From: Saccharothrix carnea
Lineage (GTDB): Bacteria; Actinomycetota; Actinomycetes; Mycobacteriales; Pseudonocardiaceae
Assembly (NCBI RefSeq): GCF_003014735.1
Contig: NZ_PYAX01000015.1
Location: forward strand, 62,001-126,000
Length of the DNA stretch: 64,000 bases
Direction of reading: 5' to 3'
Shown here: positions 14,255-38,296 of the stretch, piece by piece
Numbering within the stretch: position 1 is the stretch's first letter
How the letters are laid out: every line of letters starts with the position of its first letter
Program-made: the position numbers and the translations under genes
The notes under the pieces: generated by a model
Databases searched by the model: none
Told to the model about the DNA's origin: nothing
What the model saw: only the letters and a program-made list of their open reading frames with translations

Positions 14255-17200
14255 TCAGTGGCCGGTGTGGATGTGGGAGGCCCAGAGGACGGGTTTGTGG
14301 GGATAGCTGTCGCGGTGGTGGCGGACGGCGTGGTGGAGGGCGATCGCGGCGCGGTCGGACTGCGGTGGGGTGGTGCCGCGGTCGGTGAGGTGCAGGTAGG
14401 TGTGGTGGGCGATGGCGGTGGCGGTGGTGTCGTCGACGGGCCAGAGGGTGCCGATCACGGCGCGGTAGCCGGCGAGGTGGAAGGCCGCGGTCAGGTGGGT
14501 CGCCTCGTCGGCGTGCCGCGGGTTGGTGTCCGTGGTGCTGCACGCGGACAGGTAGGCGAGCCGGGCGTTGCCGAGGTTCAGGGCGGTGATGTCGGCGACG
14601 GTCAGCGGTGCGGTGACGTGGTCGTGCAGGATCAGCCTGCTCGCCGCGGGGTCGACCCAGTCGGCCACGCCGTGGCAGGCGAAGTGCGCGACCGGGTGGT
14701 GGGGTAACGCGGCGAGGACGGCGTCACGGGTGCTCGGCGTCGGCATCACCGCGGCGGTGGGGACGAGGTCGCGGAGCCGCTCGACCTCCTCGACGACGCC
14801 GGGGAGCCGCGAGGTGTCGGGAGCGTCGGGGACGGCGACGACCAACGTGCTGTCCGCCTCGCGGAGTGGCGATTTCGCGGCGTTGTGCAGGAGTGACCGC
14901 GCGGTCGGGGTGTACGAGGAGACGACACGGTCGAGGACGGTCCGGTGAGGACTGTCGTCGGTGGACCGGTCGACGTGGTGACCTGCGGCGTGGAGGGGCA
15001 GGAAGGTGGCGATCCCGACCGGGCACCAGTGCACGCGCGGCCAGTCCGGGTCGTCGTGGGGTGTCATGCGGTGACCGAGGTGGTCGAGCACGGGTCCGGT
15101 GATCGCGTCCCACATCCACGCCAGCGTGACGGGCAGGCGGCGGACGGCCTCGACCCGCGTTCGGGCCGGCACCAGGGGGTTCGTCGCGGTTCGGACGAGG
15201 TCGATGTGGTGGTAGGCGTCGGCCTTGGTCAGGGTGGGCAGGGGTAACGCGCGGACCGGCTGCCGGGCGTCGTCGGTGAGCACGACGGCGTGGCACGCGT
15301 GGGAGTGGATGACGAGGTAGACGACCGGGCCACCGGCCGCGGCGTGCCGCAACCGGTCGATACCCGGTGGGAGCAGGAACTCGGACAGCGCGGGAACGGC
15401 GCGGATCCCGGCGAGCAGCCGGTCCCAGTCCGCCAGGACCTGTTCGCGCGCGTGACCGGGAGCCGGGGTGTCGGATTCGGCGGTGGCGTGGTCCAGCACG
15501 TCGAGCGTGTCACGCAACGCGCCGAACTCCGCCGCCAGCGCCGGTGCGTGGTGGCGGAGGGTGCCGAGGTCGCCGCGGGTGTCGAGCGTGTCGGTGATCA
15601 GCAGTCCGCGGGTCTGCTCCAGCAACTCGACCGCCCGGTCGGCCTTCCCGGCCGCCAAGGCCGCGGCGGCGACCGTGGCGGGCAGCCCGGCGAGGTCGGC
15701 GATGCGGTGCTGTCGATCCGGCCGGCGCAGGCGCCGCGGCGCCACCAGGCCGAGCAGTTCGACAGCCCGTTCCGCCATCGTGAACGCGTGGGCGACGTCG
15801 CCGGCGGTCAGGTCGGCCTCGGCCGCCCGCTGAGCCGCGTCGACCCGCAGGTGGACCGGCCCCGCCTCCACCGCCCAGGCGTCGGTGAAGCACTGGCGTG
15901 CCCGGTCCAGCACGCGACGATCGGCCGTCCGCTCGAACAGCTCCAGCACCACGCTGCCCAAGTTGGACAGGCGCCCGCACCGGCTGGGGTGCGCAGCGGG
16001 GGTGACGGCCACGGACCGTTCGCCGAGCCGGATGGCTTCGTCGAGGTCGCCGAAGAGCTTGGTCATGCGGAACCGCGTCGACAGCGCGATGGACAGGTTC
16101 AGCAAGTGCATGCCGTGGCGGACGTGGTCGCCGGGAGTCGTGTCCGCGGCCAGCCGGAAGTGCTCGACGGCCTCGTCGAGGAACCTCAGGTCGCCTGTCT
16201 GCCTGAACTTCGTCATCACCACGTCGGCGACGTTCAACAGGTGGGTGTCGCGATCGACGTGCTCCACGGGGATGGCGGCCACGCCTCGGCGTCCGAGGTC
16301 GACCGCCTCGTCCAGCGCCGCCGGGTCACCGGTCCGCTCGAACTTGGAGCCGAGGGCCACCCCGAGGGCGCAGAGGTGGTCCCCGCGCCGGGGGTGATCG
16401 GCCGGGGCCGCTTCCAGCGCCGCGCGCAGGTGACGGATGGCTTCGTCGAGCAGGAGCAACTCGTCGGTCCGGTGGAACCGGATCTGGAGGAGCCCGCCGA
16501 GGTTGCTCAGGAACAGGGGGCGAAGGGGGTGGCCACCCGCTGTCACCTCCACGGCTTGGCGGAGGTGGTGGATGGCCTCGTCCAGCAGCGGCGCTTCCCC
16601 CGTCTGCTCGAACTCCACCCGGAGGATCTCGCCGAGGTTGGAGTGGAAGAGGCCTCGCTGCGGGTGGTCGGCGGGAACGGCTTCGACGGCCCGGCGTTCG
16701 ACCTCGATCGCCTCGGCCAACGCGGCGTGGTCCCCGGTCCGCTCGAACCTGGCGCGGAGCGCCCCGCCCAGGCTGGACAGGTGCCTGCCGCGGACCGAAG
16801 GGGCGGCGTCGGTCGACGCCACCGCTCGACGACCGACGTCGACGGCCTCGTCGAGCACGGACAGCTCACCCGTCATCGTGAACTCGGCCCGCAGCACGAT
16901 GCCGAGGTTGGCCAGTGGCACGGCGCGCTCGGCGTCATCGAGGGAACGGGCATCCACCGCCTGCCGGCAGACGTCGACCGCCTCCTCCAGGACCTCCCGC
17001 TTTCCCGTGTGGTCGTAGTACGCCCGGAGCACGTCACCGAGACCGGTGAGGCAGCCGGCGCGGAACGGGTCGTCGGCGGGAGAGTCCCGCACAGCTCGCC
17101 GGCAGACTTCGACGGCCTCCTCCAAGACCTCCCGCTCCCCGGTCTGCTCGAACCTGCTCTGCAGTGCGCCGCCCAGCGCTCCCAGGAACACACCTCGGTA

Positions 17201-17929
17201 AGGGTTTTCTGGCGGAGTCGCACTGACGGCTCGTCGGTGGAGGCGGATGGACTCGTCGGCATCGGCCAACTCGCCCGTCCGCTCGAACCGGAGCCGCAGC
17301 ACGTCGCCGAGTTGGGCCAGGTAGATGCCGTCGACAGCAGCCCCGGCCGGAGTGGCTGCCGCGGCCTCCCGGCAGGCGACGACGGCCTCGTCGAGCAAGG
17401 CGAGGTCATCGCTGTGCTCGAACCAGGTCCGGAGGGCGGTGCCCAGGCTGAACAGGTGGAAACCGCGGTCGGGGTGGTCGTCGGAGGCGAGCACGACCCG
17501 CCGGAACAGCACGACGGCTCGACCCAGTGCCTCGGGCTCCCCGGTCCGGCGGTGGTCGACGAGCCCTTCGAACGCACGGCGGAGCAGGTCGGGGAGAACC
17601 GGCCGGTCGAGGTGCCGGACCAGCTCGATCGGCAGGAGTCCGGGTGCCCTCTCCAGGAAGGGGTGCAGGAAACCGGCGGCGTACCGGAAGTCGACGTCAC
17701 CGGCTCCGGCGGGCAGGGCCTCGTAGCGCATCCAGTGCCACCAACCCAGCACGTGGTCGGCGCGCGGGTCGCCGTCGCGGAGCGCGGTGAGCGCCACGAC
17801 CTTCGCCAGGTGGCCGACCCGGTCCTGCAACACCTGACCCGGGTCGTCGCGCGGGATGCCGTTGAGGGCGGCGCGGAGCTCCTCCAGAGCCGCATCTCCG
17901 CTGTTGCCTGCTGTCGGGGTGTGGGCCAC
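14255..17929 (-). CDS. TPR-CHAT protease, last gene of CATRA-like operon
   Basis: A 1224-residue protein. After an N-terminal segment of about 200 residues come some 12 tandem repeats of 45 residues (consensus RFERTGDxxxLDEAVxxxRRAV, then HPxRGxxLSNLGxxL), then a helical linker and a C-terminal CHAT peptidase. The catalytic dyad is intact: His1086 in HFACHG and Cys1130 in YLSACST. The Trp-Pro segment GTLWPVDD after it is typical of CHAT. GTG at 17929 is chosen for the GGAAGG eight bases upstream, 32 bases after the preceding gene's stop. CHAT enzymes are caspase-like proteases switched on by partner sensors. Here the TPR superhelix would hold a partner or substrate, probably from the same operon. 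Confidence 0.85.
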   Translation of the reverse strand: MAHTPTAGNSGDAALEELRAALNGIPRDDPGQVLQDRVGHLAKVVALTALRDGDPRADHVLGWWHWMRYEALPAGAGDVDFRYAAGFLHPFLERAPGLLPIELVRHLDRPVLPDLLRRAFEGLVDHRRTGEPEALGRAVVLFRRVVLASDDHPDRGFHLFSLGTALRTWFEHSDDLALLDEAVVACREAAAATPAGAAVDGIYLAQLGDVLRLRFERTGELADADESIRLHRRAVSATPPENPYRGVFLGALGGALQSRFEQTGEREVLEEAVEVCRRAVRDSPADDPFRAGCLTGLGDVLRAYYDHTGKREVLEEAVDVCRQAVDARSLDDAERAVPLANLGIVLRAEFTMTGELSVLDEAVDVGRRAVASTDAAPSVRGRHLSSLGGALRARFERTGDHAALAEAIEVERRAVEAVPADHPQRGLFHSNLGEILRVEFEQTGEAPLLDEAIHHLRQAVEVTAGGHPLRPLFLSNLGGLLQIRFHRTDELLLLDEAIRHLRAALEAAPADHPRRGDHLCALGVALGSKFERTGDPAALDEAVDLGRRGVAAIPVEHVDRDTHLLNVADVVMTKFRQTGDLRFLDEAVEHFRLAADTTPGDHVRHGMHLLNLSIALSTRFRMTKLFGDLDEAIRLGERSVAVTPAAHPSRCGRLSNLGSVVLELFERTADRRVLDRARQCFTDAWAVEAGPVHLRVDAAQRAAEADLTAGDVAHAFTMAERAVELLGLVAPRRLRRPDRQHRIADLAGLPATVAAAALAAGKADRAVELLEQTRGLLITDTLDTRGDLGTLRHHAPALAAEFGALRDTLDVLDHATAESDTPAPGHAREQVLADWDRLLAGIRAVPALSEFLLPPGIDRLRHAAAGGPVVYLVIHSHACHAVVLTDDARQPVRALPLPTLTKADAYHHIDLVRTATNPLVPARTRVEAVRRLPVTLAWMWDAITGPVLDHLGHRMTPHDDPDWPRVHWCPVGIATFLPLHAAGHHVDRSTDDSPHRTVLDRVVSSYTPTARSLLHNAAKSPLREADSTLVVAVPDAPDTSRLPGVVEEVERLRDLVPTAAVMPTPSTRDAVLAALPHHPVAHFACHGVADWVDPAASRLILHDHVTAPLTVADITALNLGNARLAYLSACSTTDTNPRHADEATHLTAAFHLAGYRAVIGTLWPVDDTTATAIAHHTYLHLTDRGTTPPQSDRAAIALHHAVRHHRDSYPHKPVLWASHIHTGH

Positions 17930-17960
17930 CCGCACCACCTTCCGGTCGGAGGCGAACGTT

Positions 17961-19565
17961 TCAGCTGTGCCGCGTCGTCCACAGCCAGCCGCGGCCGGCG
18001 AACGCCTTGACCACGACGTCCACCGGTTCGAAGTCGTCCGGGTCCAGTCCCGGCGTGCCCTCACCGACGACGTACTCGTGCAGGCGGTCCGACAGCACCA
18101 CGGCCAGGTCCGTCTCCGGCGAACCGGCGATGGCCGCCCGCAGCGGCGCGCTGTCGAGCAGTCGGCCGATGGTGAGCGCGACCTTGCCGCCGAACCCGAG
18201 GGCCGCGAGCCCGACCGGGCCGACGTCGGCCGCCATCCGCAGCCGGACGCGGTCGCGGTGGACGGCGTTGTCCTCCGCCACCCGCCTCGCCATCCCGTTG
18301 AGCAGGGACGGCAACGCCCGCTGCACGTCGACGTGGTCGGGCAGGAACACCAGCAGCCCGTCGCCCGTCCCCTGGTGGTCCGCGTCGGCGAAGTCGAGGC
18401 CCAGGTCGGCGACCACGTCCCTGACCACCTCGGCGACCCGTCCCTGGATCCGCTCCTCGTCCGGGGTCGTCCGGCCGCTGTAGTCGACCACGTCGACCAT
18501 GAACCCCATCCGGAAGCGCCTGCCCACCGGCTGCGGCACCGGGCGGGGCGGCACGGGTTCGGGCGCGATCGCCCGGATCTCCCGAGCCAGGTTCCGGCTG
18601 CGGTCGAGCTGGGTGAGCGCGTCGCCGAGCTGGGCGTGGAACCAGTCGGCCAGCGCGGTGTCGGCACTGAGCTGCCGGGGCAGCAGGGACGCCATGTTGT
18701 CCCGCACCACGGCCACCGACCGACGCATCCGCTCCACCCGGTCGGCGGCGACGACGAGCCCCGCCTCGTCGCCGCGCAGCTCGTCCGCCACGTCCGCCCG
18801 CGTCAGGTCCGCCTGCAGCTCGTCCACCCGGGTGTCCACCTGGGCGCGCAGGTGGGCCAGCCAGTCCTCGTCCCGCTGCCAGACGCGGATGTGGTGCCGG
18901 AGCTTGGCCGCGTTGGCCAGGTAGCGCGCGAGTGGCGGCATCTCCGTGCCACCCCGGCTCCACGTCCACGCGCTCAGGCGGGCGTCCTCGCCGACCGGTG
19001 CCGTGATCACGATGTCGCGGTCGGCCCCGGTCGAGGGGTCGGACTCCCACAGCCGGAGGTCGTCGTCCAACGTCTGGCGCGCGTCCCACCGGATCCCGCC
19101 GCGCAATCGGCCGGGCAGGGGTTCGGGGGTCGACTCGCCGGGCTGCTGGGCCTGGTAGATCCGGACCGTGCCGAGCAGGTCTCCGACGTCATCGCCCTGG
19201 ACCTCGGACCACCACCGGTCGAACTCGATCCAGCCGGGTGGCACGAAGGACGCGAGGCCCGTCCGCGCCGGCGCGGCGAACAGCACCGACAGGTTCAGCA
19301 GGTCGTGGTGGCGGCGCAGCACGAGCTGGAGGTCGACGGCCTCGTTCTGCGCCGCGGCCAGTGCGCCGTCCAGACCTGTCGGGACGGAGGCGGGCGGCTC
19401 GGCGGGCAGGCCGGTGCCGCCGATCGGGTCGGTCACGCCCAACAGCTCGCGGCAGCGCAGCCAGATCGCCCGCACCTGCTCCCCCGCCCGCCGGGCGTGT
19501 CGACCGCCCAACGGGGCGAACACGTGGACGACCAGGTCCTGCTCACCCGGCGTCGGGTCGTTCAT
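17961..19565 (-). CDS. CATRA-like conflict protein with C-terminal cyclase-like domain
   Basis: A 534-residue protein. Residues about 1-180 (QDLVVHVFAPLGGRHARRAGEQ onward) and a following alpha-helical region match my memory of the N-terminal region of CATRA (caspase/CHAT and TPR-associated) proteins. Residues 353-534 form a class III nucleotide cyclase-like domain. FMVDVVDYS and GTGDGLLVFLP carry the two metal-binding Asp positions, but the usual Asn/Arg transition-state residues are not apparent, so it may bind rather than cyclise a nucleotide. ATG at 19565 lies inside the preceding small gene (23-base overlap), indicating coupled translation. The same cyclase-like domain occurs in the STAND protein at 23929. 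Confidence 0.7.
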   Translation of the reverse strand: MNDPTPGEQDLVVHVFAPLGGRHARRAGEQVRAIWLRCRELLGVTDPIGGTGLPAEPPASVPTGLDGALAAAQNEAVDLQLVLRRHHDLLNLSVLFAAPARTGLASFVPPGWIEFDRWWSEVQGDDVGDLLGTVRIYQAQQPGESTPEPLPGRLRGGIRWDARQTLDDDLRLWESDPSTGADRDIVITAPVGEDARLSAWTWSRGGTEMPPLARYLANAAKLRHHIRVWQRDEDWLAHLRAQVDTRVDELQADLTRADVADELRGDEAGLVVAADRVERMRRSVAVVRDNMASLLPRQLSADTALADWFHAQLGDALTQLDRSRNLAREIRAIAPEPVPPRPVPQPVGRRFRMGFMVDVVDYSGRTTPDEERIQGRVAEVVRDVVADLGLDFADADHQGTGDGLLVFLPDHVDVQRALPSLLNGMARRVAEDNAVHRDRVRLRMAADVGPVGLAALGFGGKVALTIGRLLDSAPLRAAIAGSPETDLAVVLSDRLHEYVVGEGTPGLDPDDFEPVDVVVKAFAGRGWLWTTRHS

Positions 19566-19863
19566 CGTCGCCCTCCACGTTCTCGTTCGCCCGCAGGCTG
19601 TCCAGCGTCTCGCTGCGCCGTTCCAGCACGAACGGGGGTGGCGGCACGACGGGTTCCTCGCCGATCCGCGTCGCGCGCACCGGCGCGACCACCGCGAGGT
19701 CCTCGGTCGCATCGTGGACCGCGTCCGAGGCACCCGAGCGGACGGCCTCGGTGAGGTCGGCGACCAGCTCGGCGACCTCCCGCCAGCCCTGCCCGGTCAT
19801 CTCCCAGCCCAGCAAGTCGTCGAGCACCGCTCTGGCGTGGTCGACGACCTCCTCTTCCAGCAC
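19543..19863 (-). CDS. small acidic CATRA-associated protein
   Basis: A 106-residue acidic protein, largely helical in its first 70 residues (EEEVVDHARAVLDDLLGWEM, then WREVAELVADLTEAV) with a Pro-rich middle (VVPPPPFVLERR) and an acidic tail. GTG at 19863 is chosen because GGAGGA lies just upstream; longer in-frame starts lack a site. It sits 28 bases after the membrane CHAT gene and overlaps the CATRA-like gene by 23 bases. Small proteins of this size accompany CATRA systems and may be adaptors or protease substrates; no function is visible in the sequence itself. Confidence 0.7.
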   Translation of the reverse strand: MLEEEVVDHARAVLDDLLGWEMTGQGWREVAELVADLTEAVRSGASDAVHDATEDLAVVAPVRATRIGEEPVVPPPPFVLERRSETLDSLRANENVEGDDERPDAG

Positions 19864-19891
19864 CGTTCCTCCTCGTCGGGTTCCGAGCGGG

Positions 19892-22800
19892 TCAACCACG
19901 CGCGACCGTCCTGCTCACGCAGGTGAACCCGGCCCACCGCACCGGGGCCGGTCGGCTCCGGAACGAGCGCAGGTGGGCCAGCTGGGCGTGCCGCAACGCC
20001 ACTGCGGGGTGCTCACCCCGCCGGATCCCGCCCGCGATGTCCGGGCACACGGTGCTCGCCGCGGCGCTGTTCACCGCGATGATCCCGCCGATCACGGAGT
20101 CCGCGCCGCCCAGCAGGCAGCTGACCGGCAAGCCCAGCGGGTCCTGTCCCGTGTCGACGCGCACGTCCCCGACGAAGCAGGCCGCGAACACCACCCACGG
20201 CGGCCAGGGCAGCGTCAAGGCCGTTGCCGCCGACAACGCCCCGCCGTCGTGGAAGACCATCCGCTGCGTCAGGCCCCGACCGTCACCGTGGGCGGCGACG
20301 TAGGCGCCCGCGAAGCGACCCGATCGCAGCGCGCCGAGCATCGCGTCCCGGGACGCGACCGGGTGGTGGCCGAGTTCGGCCACCACGCGCGCCTCCTCGG
20401 CGGTGCCCACCGACGGGTCGACGTAGGCGAGCACCGGCCCGTCGTCCGCCGGCGCCGGGTCCGGGGTCAGGACCGCCAGCGCGGGCACGATCTGCACCAC
20501 CGCCGCCTCCACGAGCAGCTGCTGCCCGTCGACCGGCAGCGCCGCCCACGGGAACGCCGACAGCTCCGCGCTCGGCACGACCACCAGCGTGGGCGCCTCG
20601 TCCGCGCTCGCGAGAGCTCGTCGCAGCCCGTCAGGCAGCAGCTCCGCGCCCAGGGCCGCCCACCGGCGCGCCTCGACGTCGTGCGACTGGCGGCGGGACA
20701 GCACCGCGTGCCGGGCCGCCGGCTCGTCCGCCCGGAGCACGGCGAGGAGGTCCGGATCCCTGACGGTGACCGGTCGCACCACCGCGTCGCCCTGCGGCGG
20801 CAGGTGGACGACGTGGCCGTGCGCGCCACGGGAACCGATCTCGGTGAAGTGGTAGGCGAGGCAGTGCGCGTTGCCGAGAACCTCCCGCAACGGCTGCACC
20901 CTCACCGGCTCCGGCAGGTACACCGACGCGAACTCCGCCGACAGCGTCCTCGCGAGACCGTCGTGCAGGCGGACCAGCTCCTGCTCGGACTCCGGGCCGC
21001 CGACAGCCTCGACCTCCTCTATGCGCGAGCGGAATCCCTCCACCTCCGGGCCGAAGTCCGAGATCCGGTCACGCAGCGTCCGGGCCAGGGCGTTGCGGCG
21101 CAACGACTCGACCAGCTCGAACGCGACCATCCCCGCGGCCGGTTCCACGGGCAGCAGCCGGGTGAGCGCGTCGAGGGCCAGCCGGTAGGTCTCGGTGTGC
21201 CGGTGCACCAGCCGGGTGCGGTACCGCCCCGTCGCCAGTTGCCCCCTGGCTTCCTCCAAGGCGTGGACGCCCGCCGTCAGCTCGGGCAGGCCGTGTCGCG
21301 GGTTCGAGCGGTTGCGGACGACACCCAGCAGGATGCTCGTGACCGCGCGGTCGACCGCGAGCGCCGGACCGCCGAAGTCCTCCAGCGCCTTGCGCAGGTG
21401 CGCGGACGCGGTGCCGTTGCGGCCGTGGTCCGCGTGCAACCGCCCGAGCAGCAGCCGTGCACGCGCCAGCGCCTCCCGGACCCGTTCGCGTCGCACGGGA
21501 CCCATCCCGGGAAACGCATCGTCCTCGAACGACAACACCTGGGACAGCCTCGACTCCAGGTCGGCGAGGGGAAGCCGGTCCGCGTACCGCGCGACGACCG
21601 CCACCTCGGCTTCGACGAGCATGTAGACGTTGCCGCTGCGCAGCAGCCCGCCCGTCGCCCGCCCCAGGGCGAGCAGCGCCTCGTCCGGGTCGGTCGCGGA
21701 CGCGCGCACCTGCGCGAGGGCGGCGAGGACCTGCGGGTCCCGGCGCTGACGCCGGGACGTCACGGCGTGGTCGAGCAGCCGGGCCGCGCGCTCGTCGTCG
21801 CCGGCGGCGAGGAAGACCCGACCGGCGATACCGTCCACGAGCGGTCGCACCCGCTCCACGTCCGTGAACGCGAGCGCGTCCTCCGCACACCGGACCGCTT
21901 CCTGCACGGCGCCGCGGTCCAGGTGGACGTGGGCCGTCGCGGCGTGCGCGGCGGCTCTCACCGCAGGCGACCGCGAGCCGTCCCCGGCGAGCTCGCCCCA
22001 CAACCGCAACGCCTCGGCGGCACGTCCGTCCTCGTGCGTCCGGCGGGCCGCGTTCCACGTCCGGCGGGCGCCGATCCCCGCCGCGAGCGGTAGCCGCGGT
22101 GCGACGTCATCGGACCCGATCATGCGGGCGGTGGCCGCGGGGAACACCGCACGGGCCAGGAGACCGACCACGATCCCCCACCCGAGCAGGGGCAGTGCCG
22201 ACACGCCGAAGACCACCGGACCGGCGGCGAACAGCAGCACCGTGCCGGTGATCGGCGGTCGCGTCCGGACGGACCGCCGGGTGAGCGACCACGCCGGTAG
22301 CGCCGCGAGCAGCGCGGACACGACCTCCGGGAGCCCTCGACCGGACGTGGTCAGCCCGGTGAGCAAGGCCCCTCCGCCGGCCACGACGACGGCACCGACC
22401 CGGGACGACCACAGCACCGCGGACTCGGTGAGGCCGAGCCTGAGCAGCCGCGCCTCGAAGTTGGGCCCTGTCGGCACGCCCCAGTCCCACCACAGCAACC
22501 CCCTGGCGAGCCGCACCGTGCACCGACCGAGGCTGCGTGCGTCGGCCAGTGCCCAGGTGACGGCCCACAGCTCGATGATCGGGTCGCTGAAGTCGAGCGA
22601 GTCACCCGGCGACAGCAGCGACCGGCGCAACCGGCGTTCCACGACGCGGGGTGGCGGCAGGTGGAGGAACGCCCGCCGGCCCCTCCTCACCAGCACCAGC
22701 CCGCGCCGCCACGACCGTCCCGCCACGAGCAGCACCACCACGGTCACCACGACGCGCAGCAGCACAGCCACCGCGGCGACCGGCGATACGAACCACACGG

Positions 22801-23038
22801 CAACGGCGACCACCGGTGCGATCCACTGCCGAGCCACCGGTCTCGCCACGACCAGCAGTACCGCCGCGGCCACGACCGCGAGCACCGGTGCGTCGGAGGC
22901 GGGCAACGAGGCCAGCGCCACGACCGTGCACAAAGGGCGCACCACGAACCACACGACCCGGACGCCGGCCGGCCAGGCTTGCCACTGCCTGCCGAAGGCC
23001 TCGCGCAACGTCCTCGGTTGCGTGGTCGTCCCGGTCAT
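19892..23038 (-). CDS. membrane-anchored TPR-CHAT protease, first gene of CATRA-like operon
   Basis: A 1048-residue protein. Residues about 20-130 hold four or so hydrophobic segments, and a second hydrophobic cluster lies near 215-310 (GAVVVAGGGALLTGL, FAAGPVVFGVSALPLLGWGIV), so the N-terminal third is a membrane domain. Residues about 330-700 are helical repeats of the TPR type. The C-terminal CHAT peptidase has His917 in AAHGDG and Cys954 in FAACFVGD. ATG at 23038 follows GGAGGG with six bases spacing. It is the promoter-proximal gene of a four-gene operon that also encodes a soluble CHAT protease, which suggests a membrane sensor-protease paired with a cytosolic one. Confidence 0.8.
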   Translation of the reverse strand: MTGTTTQPRTLREAFGRQWQAWPAGVRVVWFVVRPLCTVVALASLPASDAPVLAVVAAAVLLVVARPVARQWIAPVVAVAVWFVSPVAAVAVLLRVVVTVVVLLVAGRSWRRGLVLVRRGRRAFLHLPPPRVVERRLRRSLLSPGDSLDFSDPIIELWAVTWALADARSLGRCTVRLARGLLWWDWGVPTGPNFEARLLRLGLTESAVLWSSRVGAVVVAGGGALLTGLTTSGRGLPEVVSALLAALPAWSLTRRSVRTRPPITGTVLLFAAGPVVFGVSALPLLGWGIVVGLLARAVFPAATARMIGSDDVAPRLPLAAGIGARRTWNAARRTHEDGRAAEALRLWGELAGDGSRSPAVRAAAHAATAHVHLDRGAVQEAVRCAEDALAFTDVERVRPLVDGIAGRVFLAAGDDERAARLLDHAVTSRRQRRDPQVLAALAQVRASATDPDEALLALGRATGGLLRSGNVYMLVEAEVAVVARYADRLPLADLESRLSQVLSFEDDAFPGMGPVRRERVREALARARLLLGRLHADHGRNGTASAHLRKALEDFGGPALAVDRAVTSILLGVVRNRSNPRHGLPELTAGVHALEEARGQLATGRYRTRLVHRHTETYRLALDALTRLLPVEPAAGMVAFELVESLRRNALARTLRDRISDFGPEVEGFRSRIEEVEAVGGPESEQELVRLHDGLARTLSAEFASVYLPEPVRVQPLREVLGNAHCLAYHFTEIGSRGAHGHVVHLPPQGDAVVRPVTVRDPDLLAVLRADEPAARHAVLSRRQSHDVEARRWAALGAELLPDGLRRALASADEAPTLVVVPSAELSAFPWAALPVDGQQLLVEAAVVQIVPALAVLTPDPAPADDGPVLAYVDPSVGTAEEARVVAELGHHPVASRDAMLGALRSGRFAGAYVAAHGDGRGLTQRMVFHDGGALSAATALTLPWPPWVVFAACFVGDVRVDTGQDPLGLPVSCLLGGADSVIGGIIAVNSAAASTVCPDIAGGIRRGEHPAVALRHAQLAHLRSFRSRPAPVRWAGFTCVSRTVARG

Positions 23039-23928: not shown

Positions 23929-26552
23929 ATGGTGGGTTCGGGTCAGGCCGTGCACCGCACGATCGTCGTGGTGGACGTGGAGGGGTTCGGTGATCCGCGC
24001 CGGACGCTGCCGCACCAGGTCGGCACCCGGGCGGGCTTGTACCGGGTGGTCGCCGACAGCTTGCGCGCGGCCGGGGTGCGGTGGGAGGCGTGCTACCACG
24101 AGGACCGCGGTGACAGCGTGTTCGTGCTGGTCCCGGCCGAGTACGCCAAGGCGCCGCTGGTGGAGGTGCTGCCGGGGGCGTTGGTGGAGGCGTTGCGGCG
24201 GCACAACGACACCAGTCCGCCGGCCCAGCGCGTCCGGCTGCGGGTGGCGGTCCACGCCGGTGAGGTGGTCTTCGACCGCCACGGTGTCACCTCGACCGCG
24301 GTCACCACGGCGTTCCGCCTGCTCGACGCGCCGAAGGTCAAGCGCGCGCTCGCGGACTCGCCGGGCCTGGTCGTGCTGGTCGTGTCGCGCTGGCTGTTCG
24401 ACGAGGTCGTCCGCCACTCCGCGGTGCTCGACCCGGCCACCTTCCGGCAGGTACCGGTGGCGGTGAAGGAGGTCCGCGACACCGCCTGGATCGCCCTGCC
24501 CGACCACCCCTACCCCGCCGACCCCACTGTCCTCGACGGACCCGCGCCCCGGGACGGCGACGGAACGCCCCGACAACTGCCCGCACCACCGGCCCACTTC
24601 GTCGGGCGCGAGGAGTACCTGGCCGAACTCGACCGCGCCCTGACCGGGGCGGGCGGGACGCTGTGCGTCTCGGCTCTGGGCGGCACGGGCGGTATCGGCA
24701 AGACCTGGTTGGCGCTGCACTGGGCTTACCACCGCGCCGACCGCTTCCCGGACGGGCAGCTGTTCGTCGACCTGCGCGGCTTCAGCCCGGACAGCCAGCC
24801 CCTCGACCCGGCGGTCGCGGTACGAGGCATCCTCGACGCGTTCGGCGTCGACCCCGGCCGGATCCCCGTCGACCTCGACGCCCGGACGGCGTTGTACCGC
24901 AGCCTGATCGCGGACAAGCGGATGCTGATCGTGCTGGACAACGCCGCCACCGCCGACCAGGTCATCCCCCTGCTGCCCGGCACCCCCGGCTGCACCGTGG
25001 TGGTCACCAGCCGCACGAAGCTCGCCACCCTGATCGACCGGCACGGCGCCCACCACCTCCAACTGGACGTCCTCTCCCGGGAAGAAGCCCACGCGCTGCT
25101 GGCCGAACGCCTCGGTGACAAGCGCCTGGCCGCCGAACCCGAGGCGACCGACGAGCTGATCGAGCTGTGCGGTCGCTACCCGCTGGCGTTGTCGATCACG
25201 GCACGGCACGCCTCCCTCCGCCCGCGGGTCCCGCTGGCCGAGTTCACCGCCGAACTGCGCGACTTCGGCCTGGACGTGCTGGACGACGACGATCCCGCCG
25301 CCGGCCTGCCCGCCGTGCTGTCCTGGTCCCTGCGCCGGCTCACCGACACCCAGCGCACCCTGTTCGGGCTGCTGGGCATCGCACCCGGTCCCGACACCAC
25401 CCTGCCCGCCGCGGCCTCCCTCGCCGCCCTGACCCCCGCCCGCGCACGCACGACCCTGGCGGCGTTGGAGGAAGCGTCCCTGGTCGACCGGCGACCGGGC
25501 GGCCGCTACGCGATGCACGACCTGGTCCGCGCCTACGCCGCCACGCACGCCGACACCACGCTCCCCGAGCCCGTGCGGCAGGCCGCGCTCGAGCGGGTGG
25601 TCGACTTCTACGTGCACACCTGCCACACCGCCCACGACCTCGTCGAACCCAACGACGCGCAGAGCCGGTCGGAGCCGCCCGCGCCCGGCGTGCTCCCGCT
25701 TCCGCTGTCCGACCAGGCCGCCGCACTGGCCTGGCTCGACGCCGAACACCCGCACCTGCTCGCCGCCCAGCGCATCGCCGCCGCCCACCACCGGCACCAC
25801 GCCGTGTGGGACCTGGCGTGGAACCTGACGACCTTCCACAAACGGCGGGGGCACCTCCGCGACAACCTGACCGGGTGGCAGCTCGCGCTGGACGCCGCCA
25901 CCCACCTGCCCGACCCCGTCGTCCGCATCCGCGCCCTTCGCCAGGTCGGCACCGCCCACGCCCTGTTGGACAGGCACCAGGACGCCATCGGCTACCTGCA
26001 CCGAGCACTCGCCCAGGCCGACCACCACCAGGAGACCCTGCAACGAGCCGGGTCCCACATGGACCTGGCCGCGTCGTGGGCGCAGCAGGAGGACAACCGC
26101 CAGGCCCTGGACCACGCCCGGCACGCCCTGGGCTTCCTCCGCGTCGTCGGCAACCCGATCTGGGAAGCCGGCGCGCTCAACATGGTGGGCTGGTGTGCCG
26201 CCCGCCTGGGCGACTACGACACCGCGCGCGACCACTGCCAGGCCGCTCTGGAACTGCACCGACAGCACCACGACCTGCACGGCGAGGCGGCCACCCTGAA
26301 CACGCTGGGCTTCATCGACCAGCACACCGGCCGCCACCACCGGGCGATCCGGCGGTACCGGCAGGTGCTCGCCCTGTTCGACACCCTCGGCCACGCCTAC
26401 GAGGCCGCCAACACCCTCGACCGCCTCGGCCACCCGCACACCGCGCTCGGCCAACACGACCAGGCCCGCGAGGTGTGGCGGGAGGCGCTGAAGCTGTACC
26501 GGGACCAGGGCCGTGACGCCGACGCCCGACGAGTCCAGCGACAGCTCGACGG

Positions 26553-26562
<10 letters not shown>
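23929..26562 (+). CDS. STAND protein: cyclase-like domain, NB-ARC NTPase, TPR repeats
   Basis: An 877-residue signalling NTPase. Residues about 9-190 are a cyclase-like domain (IVVVDVEGF, then RGDSVFVLVP) closely parallel to that of the CATRA-like protein at 17961-19565. An NB-ARC ATPase follows with P-loop GGTGGIGKTWLA (Lys258), Walker B MLIVLDNA, VVVTSR and GRYPLALSI. A winged-helix region (AMHDLVRAYA near residue 530) leads to about seven TPR units to the C terminus. There is no SARP DNA-binding domain, so it is not a classical pathway activator. ATG at 23929 is the first Met before the conserved domain. It converges on the hybrid synthetase gene, with stops overlapping by ten bases. It may sense a nucleotide or invader signal for the adjacent protease operon. 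Confidence 0.8.
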
Positions 26563-36953
<10,391 letters not shown>

Positions 36954-38296
36954 GTTCCCGCCTCCTGGTACCACCGCTCGACCCGGGGGCCGACGAGCGG
37001 GTTGTGAACAACAGAAAAGCCGTCGCCGCGCACAGCGCCAGTCCGTGGAGCAGGGCCACGACCGCGAGGGCGGGAAGGACTTCCAACAAGGCGCCCGCCG
37101 CTGCCATGCCGAGGGCGAACCCGGAGGTCTCGATCGTCGCGGAGAGACCGAACAACCGCGTGCGTAGGTGGTCGGGTGCTTCTTGCAGGCGTGACACGTA
37201 GGCGATCTCGGTGACGCCGTCAGCCAGGCCCGCGACCAGGACGACGATCGCCATCGCGATGTCGGGCAGTCCGGTGAACGCCAGGGTGAACGACACCGCC
37301 ATCGCGCAGGTGGCCAAGCCGAAGGCCCGCTGCAGGCGGTGGGCGGTGCCGAGGCCGCCCCACCTGGTCACGACGCGGTGGGCCGACAGCACCCCCACCG
37401 CCCAGGCGACCCAGAAGTAGCTCATGAACGTCGCGGCCCCGTCCGGTCGCGTGGTGGCCGCGAACACCGGGAGGGCGGTGTTGTGCGAGGACGACGCGAA
37501 GGCATCGACCCCTCGCAGCACCAGCATCAACAGCACGACCGGCGCCACGCCCGCGAGCGTGGCCCGGGCACCTGCCTCGCCGGTGGCCGGTGCCACGGCC
37601 GCCGGGTCGTGGGCGCGGAACCGGATCAGGGCCAGCGCGACGGCCGACACGGCGAAGGTCGCCGCGTTGAAGGCGAACGCGGCCGGGAAACCGCCGATGC
37701 CGATCAGGGGTCCGGCACCGGCGAAACCGCACACCATGGCCACGGACTTCGCCGTGACGAGCAGGCCGTTCGCCCGGACCCTCGCCGCCTCACCCACCAT
37801 GTCCGGCACCGCCGAGCGCAGTGCCACGGTGAACAGGCTGTTGCCCGCGCCGAGCACCGCGACCGCGCAACCGAGCACCACGACGTCGGCGGCGCGGGTG
37901 GTGGCCGCGAGCACGGTCATCGCCACCAACTGTGCGAGATCCGCGCCGATCATGAGCCGACGCCGGTCGAACCGCTCGGCCAGCGCACCGGCGGCGAACC
38001 CGGCGAGGCTTCCCGTGACCAGGCGCAGGGCGGCCAGCAGCCCGACCCCGAGCCCGCTGCCGGTCACCTCGTAGGTGAACAGCGCGAGGGCGACGAGGTT
38101 CAGGTAGTTGCCGCAGGTGGAGACCCCGTATGCGGCCACCGGCCAGGTGAACCGCCTACCCGGTGCGATCGAGGACCCCGTCTGGTTGCCGGTCTGGCTG
38201 TTGGCCGCGTTCACTGCCGTTCATCTCGGTCGGAAGGTGTGGTGTCCTCGGCCCGGCACCACGAGGCGCATCGGTGAAGTCAGACTGGCCCGAGCG

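Follow-up and report, generated by a model that had tools for sequence, protein, structure and literature searches.

A CATRA-type operon with two CHAT proteases and a cyclase-like domain in Saccharothrix carnea

The DNA analyzed here (the window) is a stretch of 64,000 nucleotides from Saccharothrix carnea (contig NZ_PYAX01000015.1, positions 62,001 to 126,000 of the forward strand), in which an operon of four minus-strand genes encodes two CHAT proteases (A and B), a CATRA protein with a C-terminal cyclase-like domain, and the CATRA-associated small protein (CATASP). Judged from profile matches, the operon is a member of the CATRA conflict-system kind, because CATRA-N, CATRA-C, CATASP and both CHAT domains match curated models. 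The kind is known (Pfam PF20269, PF20270 and PF20271; passages of PMC8195603), and the layout in the window is a variant of it. We tentatively interpret the operon as a protease-first conflict cassette in which the cyclase would act after the proteases, a reading that we consider possible without calling it probable.

Gene layout and family assignment

The genes and the domains of their products were located as follows (all on the minus strand; positions are those of the window).
23038-19892, protease A, tetratricopeptide repeat (TPR)-CHAT protein with hydrophobic N-terminus, 1048 residues (open reading frame; Pfam CHAT, E 2.8e-21)
22145-22969, hydrophobic, probably membrane-spanning part of protease A, residues 24-298, six segments (hydropathy)
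19916-20653, CHAT domain of protease A, residues 796-1041, with His917 and Cys954 (Pfam, alignment, tree)
19863-19543, CATASP, 106 residues, GTG start (PF20271, E 2e-21)
19565-17961, CATRA protein with C-terminal cyclase-like domain, 534 residues (Pfam; NF038357, E 5e-99; structure model)
18951-19535, CATRA-N domain, residues 11-205 (PF20269)
18585-18938, CATRA-C domain, residues 210-327, three long helices (PF20270 and structure models)
18522-18584, proline-rich linker, residues 328-348, candidate protease site (sequence; cleavage predicted)
17964-18521, class III nucleotide-cyclase-like domain, residues 349-534 (profile, structure model)
17929-14255 (start at 17938 possible), protease B, TPR-CHAT protein, 1224 residues, GTG start (open reading frame; Pfam CHAT, E 2.7e-38)
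14261-15124, CHAT domain of protease B, residues 936-1223, with His1086 and Cys1130 (Pfam, alignment, tree)

An earlier model-made note on this DNA (the sequence-only reading) had placed four minus-strand genes here; all four open reading frames were found where it had put them, and its intergenic spacing of 28, -23 and 31 bases, in gene order, was reproduced on recomputation, the negative value being the 23-base overlap of the CATASP gene with the CATRA gene. When trained on three of the four, a codon-usage gene caller returned the same set, with protease B starting at 17938, not 17929. The suggestion of a CATRA-like operon was borne out by the Pfam scan, in which CATRA-N (PF20269, 181 bits, cut-off 27, E 3.2e-53), CATRA-C (PF20270, 104.5 bits, cut-off 24.6, E 9.9e-30) and CATASP (PF20271, 76.1 bits, cut-off 29) all scored far over their cut-offs, and the 534-residue protein fell into the BN6_48550 family (NF038357) of NCBIfam. 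CATASP is acidic, as had been noted (26 acidic against 9 basic residues). In the predicted structure of the CATRA protein, pLDDT (predicted local distance difference test score) falls to 79 and 61 in the linker region (blocks 331-340 and 341-350, respectively). The host genome of 8.9 Mb contains 23 CHAT matches; its second CATRA-cyclase locus lies on a different contig.

CATRA systems are a predicted type of immune module; no experimental study of one was found in the open-licence literature, in agreement with the sequence-only reading, which knew of no experimentally characterized member. Its description of CATRA systems as regulated by NTP was not upheld: 'NTP-dependent' is from the title of a 2020 eLife paper in whose text the word CATRA has 0 occurrences.

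Distribution and linkage of CATRA loci

CATRA loci were taken as stretches of up to 20 kb and annotated with the codon-usage gene caller and profiles, one of them (L061, Saccharothrix deserti) coming from a scan of named genomes with a single protein. Before counting, L060 (which repeats the window), L059 (without a CATRA hit) and L092 (a duplicate of L061) were dropped. So were a truncated copy of CATRA in L039, the second piece of the CATRA that is broken in L091 and a contig-end fragment in L121; L120 yielded no CATRA row. CATRA is patchily distributed: CATRA-N occurs in 18 of 397 genomes at the level of the order, in 33 of 390 (31 over the cut-off) at that of the family, in 7 of 25 within the genus and, in a sample of the phylum, in 3 of 396, this genome included. 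CATRA systems have likewise been called phyletically restricted in a passage of PMC12657218.

CATASP lay beside CATRA or was fused to it in 46 of 54 rows (41 upstream on the same strand or fused, 5 divergent) and was not detected by profile in the other 8; in L054 the two proteins are naturally fused. A CHAT gene was present within 6 kb of CATRA in 46/54 rows, a count that takes in two possibly spurious rows of 280-282 residues 5.9 kb away (L103, L107) and misses a profile-negative TPR-CHAT gene noticed by eye in L099; two or more were present in 16 rows. Twenty of the CATRA-bearing genomes hold 183 CHAT matches in about 178 Mb, or about one per Mb, so that about 1.4% of loci would be expected to have a CHAT gene by chance. 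After removal of five near-duplicate loci, CATASP on the same strand or fused (37), CHAT (41) and cyclase (20) were counted in 49 rows. CATRA, CATASP and CHAT genes are thus linked across genomes, and the outcome that the sequence-only reading had named as refuting it (no family match, and the genes mostly apart) did not occur. The full set of four genes in one order and direction is more limited: co-directional CHAT-CATASP-CATRA-CHAT was found strictly in three of 54 rows (the window, L108 of the same genus, and L041). L094 would make four, but its CATASP is inverted, and S. deserti has the same four gene kinds with the last one inverted. The strict two-protease layout is rare.

The exchangeable C-terminal slot and its partner genes

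The domain that follows CATRA-C was classified in 53 rows (L091 left out), by Pfam for ten representatives and by similarity to those for the other rows: cyclase in 22, membrane tail in 14, TIR in 6, nucleoside phosphorylase in 6, conflict-type GT4 in 3, trypsin in 1 and unassigned in 1. On the CATRA tree the slot class changes at least 9 times, against a minimum of 6 and 27.5 in shuffles; slot swaps occur but are rare.

Partner genes were counted at 53 loci (the 54 rows with L101 counted once). Genes of the PycTM family, to which a Pycsar effector belongs, were found 86-609 bases from CATRA at 4 of 21 cyclase loci and at none of the 32 other loci.
L104:10869-11363, PycTM-family gene (PF18967, E 3.5e-16)
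L051:10382-10855, PycTM-family gene (by similarity)
L052:8949-9404, PycTM-family gene (by similarity)
L055:10445-10918, PycTM-family gene (by similarity)
Three of these four loci belong to one genus, and the four therefore count as two independent cases; L104 carries PycTM and CHAT genes together. Macro genes were searched with narrow profiles built from these same genes: ThsA-type Macro genes lay within 3.2 kb at all three loci with a CAP12-type TIR (L040, L041 and L049; three of the six TIR loci) and at no other, and Macro genes fused to a TIR or cyclase-like domain lay at five of the six phosphorylase loci (L054, L094, L096, L100 and L110) and at no other. This pairing of slot and neighbor suggests that the slot enzymes make nucleotide signals that are read by the partner. 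The other families present in at least four loci were all ordinary, as seen from one representative each (short-chain dehydrogenase, LuxR and response regulators, LysR, zinc dehydrogenase, ABC transporter, FAD oxidoreductase and a TPR protein).

The cyclase-like domain

That the 534-residue protein ends in a cyclase-like domain was confirmed by profile and structure, both of which gave a class III cyclase fold. At E values up to 1, Pfam cyclase models did not match residues 349-534; with a profile built from 28 relatives, the class III cyclase 3mr7 was found (E 6.4e-5), and the predicted structure (mean pLDDT 90.5) aligned with Ma1120 of Mycobacterium avium (5d0h_B) at Z 17.6 over 155 residues, with a root-mean-square deviation of 2.1. 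At least 90% of the 28 cyclase domains retain Asp358, Asp402, Arg468 and Lys520; we take Asp358 and Asp402 to be the metal-binding positions and likewise assume catalytic roles for Arg468, Lys520 and the positions known as the base-selecting Lys and the transition-state Asn. In the alignment to 3mr7, these last two correspond to Gln398 and Leu464. One relative (L045:8095-10299) consists of CATRA, a cyclase-like domain and then a TIR-like remnant without the segment aligned to VLLEAG, whose Glu is presumably the catalytic residue of TIR.

These substitutions invite the alternative that the C-terminal domain is a pseudo-cyclase that only binds a nucleotide, CATRA then being a sensor or adaptor holding CHAT proteases that cleave essential proteins. 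The loss of the canonical Asn and Lys favors it, as does the degenerate TIR of L045, but conservation of the metal Asps, Arg468 and Lys520 and the PycTM-family genes beside cyclase loci argue against it. A cyclase that lacks the Lys may still be active, because known pyrimidine cyclases also differ at base-selecting positions, as described in passages of PMC11224242; the same passages give Asp102 and Asp146 as the metal Asps and Phe100, Arg142 and Gln144 as the base-selecting residues of the pyrimidine cyclase EaPycC. Counted simply from the Asps, the latter places are Met356, Gln398 and Thr400 in the window cyclase. We regard the pseudo-cyclase as improbable. The domain most likely makes a nucleotide signal, since it fills an exchangeable slot and PycTM-family genes adjoin it in relatives.

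The two CHAT proteases

The His/Cys dyad reported for both proteases was found at His917/Cys954 in A and His1086/Cys1130 in B, and an alignment of 65 CHAT domains from CATRA loci, the window pair included, shows each of the two residues kept in 64. The twelve TPR repeats claimed for protease B agree with a motif period of 45 residues and about 11-12 units. Hydropathy points to an apparent membrane anchor in protease A, with six hydrophobic segments at residues 24-298 and two more inside the CHAT domain, which we interpret as buried. This hydrophobic N-terminus is an unusual feature at the window locus: when the two best candidates per genome were scored, a procedure by which distant relatives could be missed, residues 1-736 had one relative among 396 other genomes (G188), there again among CATRA genes.

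In a tree of the 65 CHAT domains, all from CATRA loci, protease A falls in a branch of 11 rows (support 96/86) that includes the upstream proteases of L040, L041, L043, L061 and L108 and also inverted or downstream proteases (L038/L039, L045, L056 and L057), and protease B groups with the downstream protease of L108 and the upstream one of L110 (3 rows, support 100/96). A and B therefore belong to distinct lineages and did not arise by recent duplication, and by the same tree L108 matches the window gene for gene. Gene position is weakly clustered on the tree: the label for upstream co-directional proteases changes 12 times against 13.7 in shuffles (61 of 500 shuffles as low), and all four position labels change 29 times against 33.6 (5 of 200 as low). 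The idea of two protease slots thus draws on the two branches with support and not on gene position as a whole.

Neither protease contains a known nucleotide-binding domain in the Pfam scan, and solved-structure searches with both gave nothing useful. Protease B matches TPR-S (40.2 bits, cut-off 27.6), which we take to be a predicted sensor of signals derived from nicotinamide adenine dinucleotide. The idea that TPR-S senses nucleotides for CHAT partners in general was not retained; TPR-S was present in one of 19 CHAT proteins beside cyclase-type CATRA, namely protease B itself, and in none of 11 beside membrane-tail CATRA.

Proposed mechanism and order of events

In the protease-first reading, the constant core would be the CATRA scaffold and CATASP, whose genes overlap and whose products are probably bound together, and the protease layer would be the two caspase-like CHAT proteases, A apparently at the membrane and B with its long TPR array. 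Infection or damage would switch on a CHAT protease, in the case of A possibly through a membrane cue; the active protease would cut or rearrange the complex of CATRA with CATASP, the proline-rich linker being the simplest place for this, and would so release or activate the cyclase-like domain, which would make a nucleotide second messenger or drain nucleotides; and the infected cell would stop or die. In some relatives the reader of the messenger may be a PycTM-type membrane protein. Precedents for the protease steps are a TPR-CHAT protease that is activated in type III-E CRISPR (PMC9729208, PMC11106740) and a protease that activates a proenzyme nuclease (PMC12799240).

Several results weigh against this reading. 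L051, L052 and L055, the PycTM loci of one genus, have neither CATASP nor CHAT, and their cyclase therefore needs no protease there. PycTM-family genes gave 0 matches in the whole genome of the window, so that the reader here would be one of the proteases or some other protein. The activity of the cyclase may be low, because Leu464 stands in place of the transition-state Asn. None of the four proteins was matched by PADLOC at E 0.01, no shared cleavage motif was obvious by eye in the linkers, and the tie of the locus to phage is a prediction.

The same components could act in the reverse order, close to what was first inferred: CATRA-CATASP would sense the invader, the cyclase would signal, and the CHAT proteases would be the readers and executioners, perhaps one activating the other. 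The two readings differ only in the order of events. The reverse order gains from the missing PycTM match and from the lack of another candidate executioner in the window operon, from the finding that the three of the 21 cyclase loci that lack CATASP and CHAT all carry a PycTM-family gene, so that PycTM and CHAT look like substitutes for each other as readers, and from the TPR-S match of protease B; in type III-B CRISPR, moreover, CHAT proteases are known that are activated by nucleotides and set off a cascade of two proteases. It is set back by the rarity of TPR-S among the CHAT partners, by the lack of a known nucleotide-binding domain in either protease, and by L104, in which PycTM and CHAT genes stand together. 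No nucleotide signal would come from the membrane tails, GT4 and trypsin that other CATRA proteins carry in this slot, and the simplest flow for them is therefore from protease to CATRA. A cyclase that acts after the proteases is thus slightly favored over one that acts before them, and we consider the reverse order rather unlikely.

Relation to known systems

With the described CATRA conflict systems the operon has in common CATRA-N, CATRA-C, CATASP, a TPR-CHAT protein and a variable CATRA C-terminal domain, all adjacent; it differs by having two proteases, the upstream one apparently membrane-anchored. Plasmid records label relatives as 'CATRA conflict system' proteins. One such set, on a plasmid of Streptomyces sp. 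NBC_00015 (NZ_CP108308.1, L152), has the same three core genes in the same order but a single CHAT protein of 1610 residues and a CATRA with a hydrophobic tail, as judged by eye, in place of the cyclase. On that plasmid, which is typed as non-mobilizable, CATASP-CATRA-CHAT adjoins a gene for a TraM-recognition protein.

Pycsar, given in passages of PMC11224242 as a pyrimidine cyclase with a PycTM or PycTIR receptor, shares with the window a class III cyclase with both metal Asps, and its PycTM-family genes and CAP12/Pycsar-type TIR recur at CATRA loci of relatives, the former beside 4/21 cyclase loci and the latter in the CATRA slot. The window differs in that the cyclase is fused to CATRA among CHAT proteases and that neither a PADLOC match nor a genomic PycTM match was obtained; a cyclic-nucleotide-binding domain, as for a Pycsar receptor, was absent from the Pfam scan of the four proteins. 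The ThsA-type Macro genes at the three CAP12-type TIR loci of relatives form a Thoeris-like pairing, and these genes are not at the window locus. The TPR-CHAT architecture is also that of the type III-E CRISPR Craspase, but protease B matched Csx29 weakly (36.5 bits, far under the 300-bit cut-off) and was not identified as Csx29, and no CRISPR genes, a Cas7-11 partner included, were among the 10 neighbor genes scanned.

Fold of CATRA

A model of CATRA alone (residues 1-335) had pLDDT 93.7 and a predicted template modeling score of 0.91. CorA, ZntB, Mrs2 or CmaX made up 45 of the best 50 Foldseek matches listed, with probability up to 0.98, but the top match had E 1.9e-3 and none was below 1e-3. 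A second aligner gave Z 13.6, mainly over helices 221-335, a value that helical bundles can reach by chance. With hhalign against 18 actinobacterial CorA sequences, the probability was 0.3% for CATRA and for CATRA with membrane tails alike. The GMN motif is a feature of CorA channels; the membrane tails of CATRA have about four hydrophobic stretches, and the motif was not seen in them by eye. Nothing comparable to CATRA was found in a viral structure library, where the top probability was 0.47 among the best 50 matches listed. A CorA-like fold of CATRA is thus only a lead from the models.

Neighboring genes

Three genes beside the operon bear on its limits and its role.
23929-26562, plus strand, divergent from the operon, STAND gene with an N-terminal cyclase-like domain (same family as on CATRA), NB-ARC and TPR
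26553-36953, minus strand, hybrid non-ribosomal peptide synthetase-polyketide synthase (NRPS-PKS) gene with a luciferase-like monooxygenase domain
36922-38139, major facilitator superfamily transporter gene, next after the NRPS-PKS gene

The STAND gene was considered as a fifth operon member and was not counted as part of it, its family being too abundant. For membership speak at least 10 such cyclase domains in this genome (among the best 150 of 205 candidates) and separate cyclase-domain genes in the stretches of 7 of 54 rows against about 1 expected, the expectation being taken from a lower-bound count. Against it, the family was found in all 25 genomes of the genus with at least 18-39 matches each, and 6 of the 10 closest outside matches listed (G827, G826 twice, G817, G818 and G816) are in genomes without CATRA. 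Such STAND genes lie within 6.5 kb of CATRA at 5/53 loci (the window, L047, L095, L119 and L117), which is roughly as expected because the family is so abundant.

The NRPS-PKS gene and nearby transporter genes would fit a role outside defense, in which the operon serves housekeeping or developmental signaling in a filamentous actinobacterium or is drawn along with the neighboring biosynthetic cluster. The patchy distribution, at 18/397 genomes of the order and 7/25 of the genus, argues against this, as do the TIR, conflict-type GT4, ThsA-type Macro and PycTM-family domains in relatives and the occurrence of the CATASP-CATRA-CHAT core on the Streptomyces plasmid by the TraM-recognition protein gene, non-mobilizable as that plasmid is typed. 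We hold such a role to be very unlikely.

Implications

Taken jointly, the results may also be read as a protease-linked hub: CATRA would accept plugged-in signal enzymes from other defense systems, each paired with a dedicated reader: PycTM for the cyclase, ThsA-type Macro for the CAP12-type TIR and, for the nucleoside phosphorylase, a Macro domain fused to TIR or cyclase. At the window locus the readers would be both CHAT proteases, and the cyclase, with base-selecting residues of its own (Met356, Gln398 and Thr400), would make a non-canonical cyclic nucleotide that sets off a two-step protease cascade at the membrane. We think this unlikely as a whole, and a CorA-like origin of the CATRA scaffold, as a further twist on the hub, less likely still.

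The locus and its relatives present a testable grammar, in which a CATASP-CATRA-CHAT core carries an exchangeable C-terminal domain and the partner genes fit that domain. If the interpretation is true, a single bacterial pathway would combine nucleotide signaling with caspase-like proteolysis, and in the variant found in the window its first protease would be linked to the membrane.

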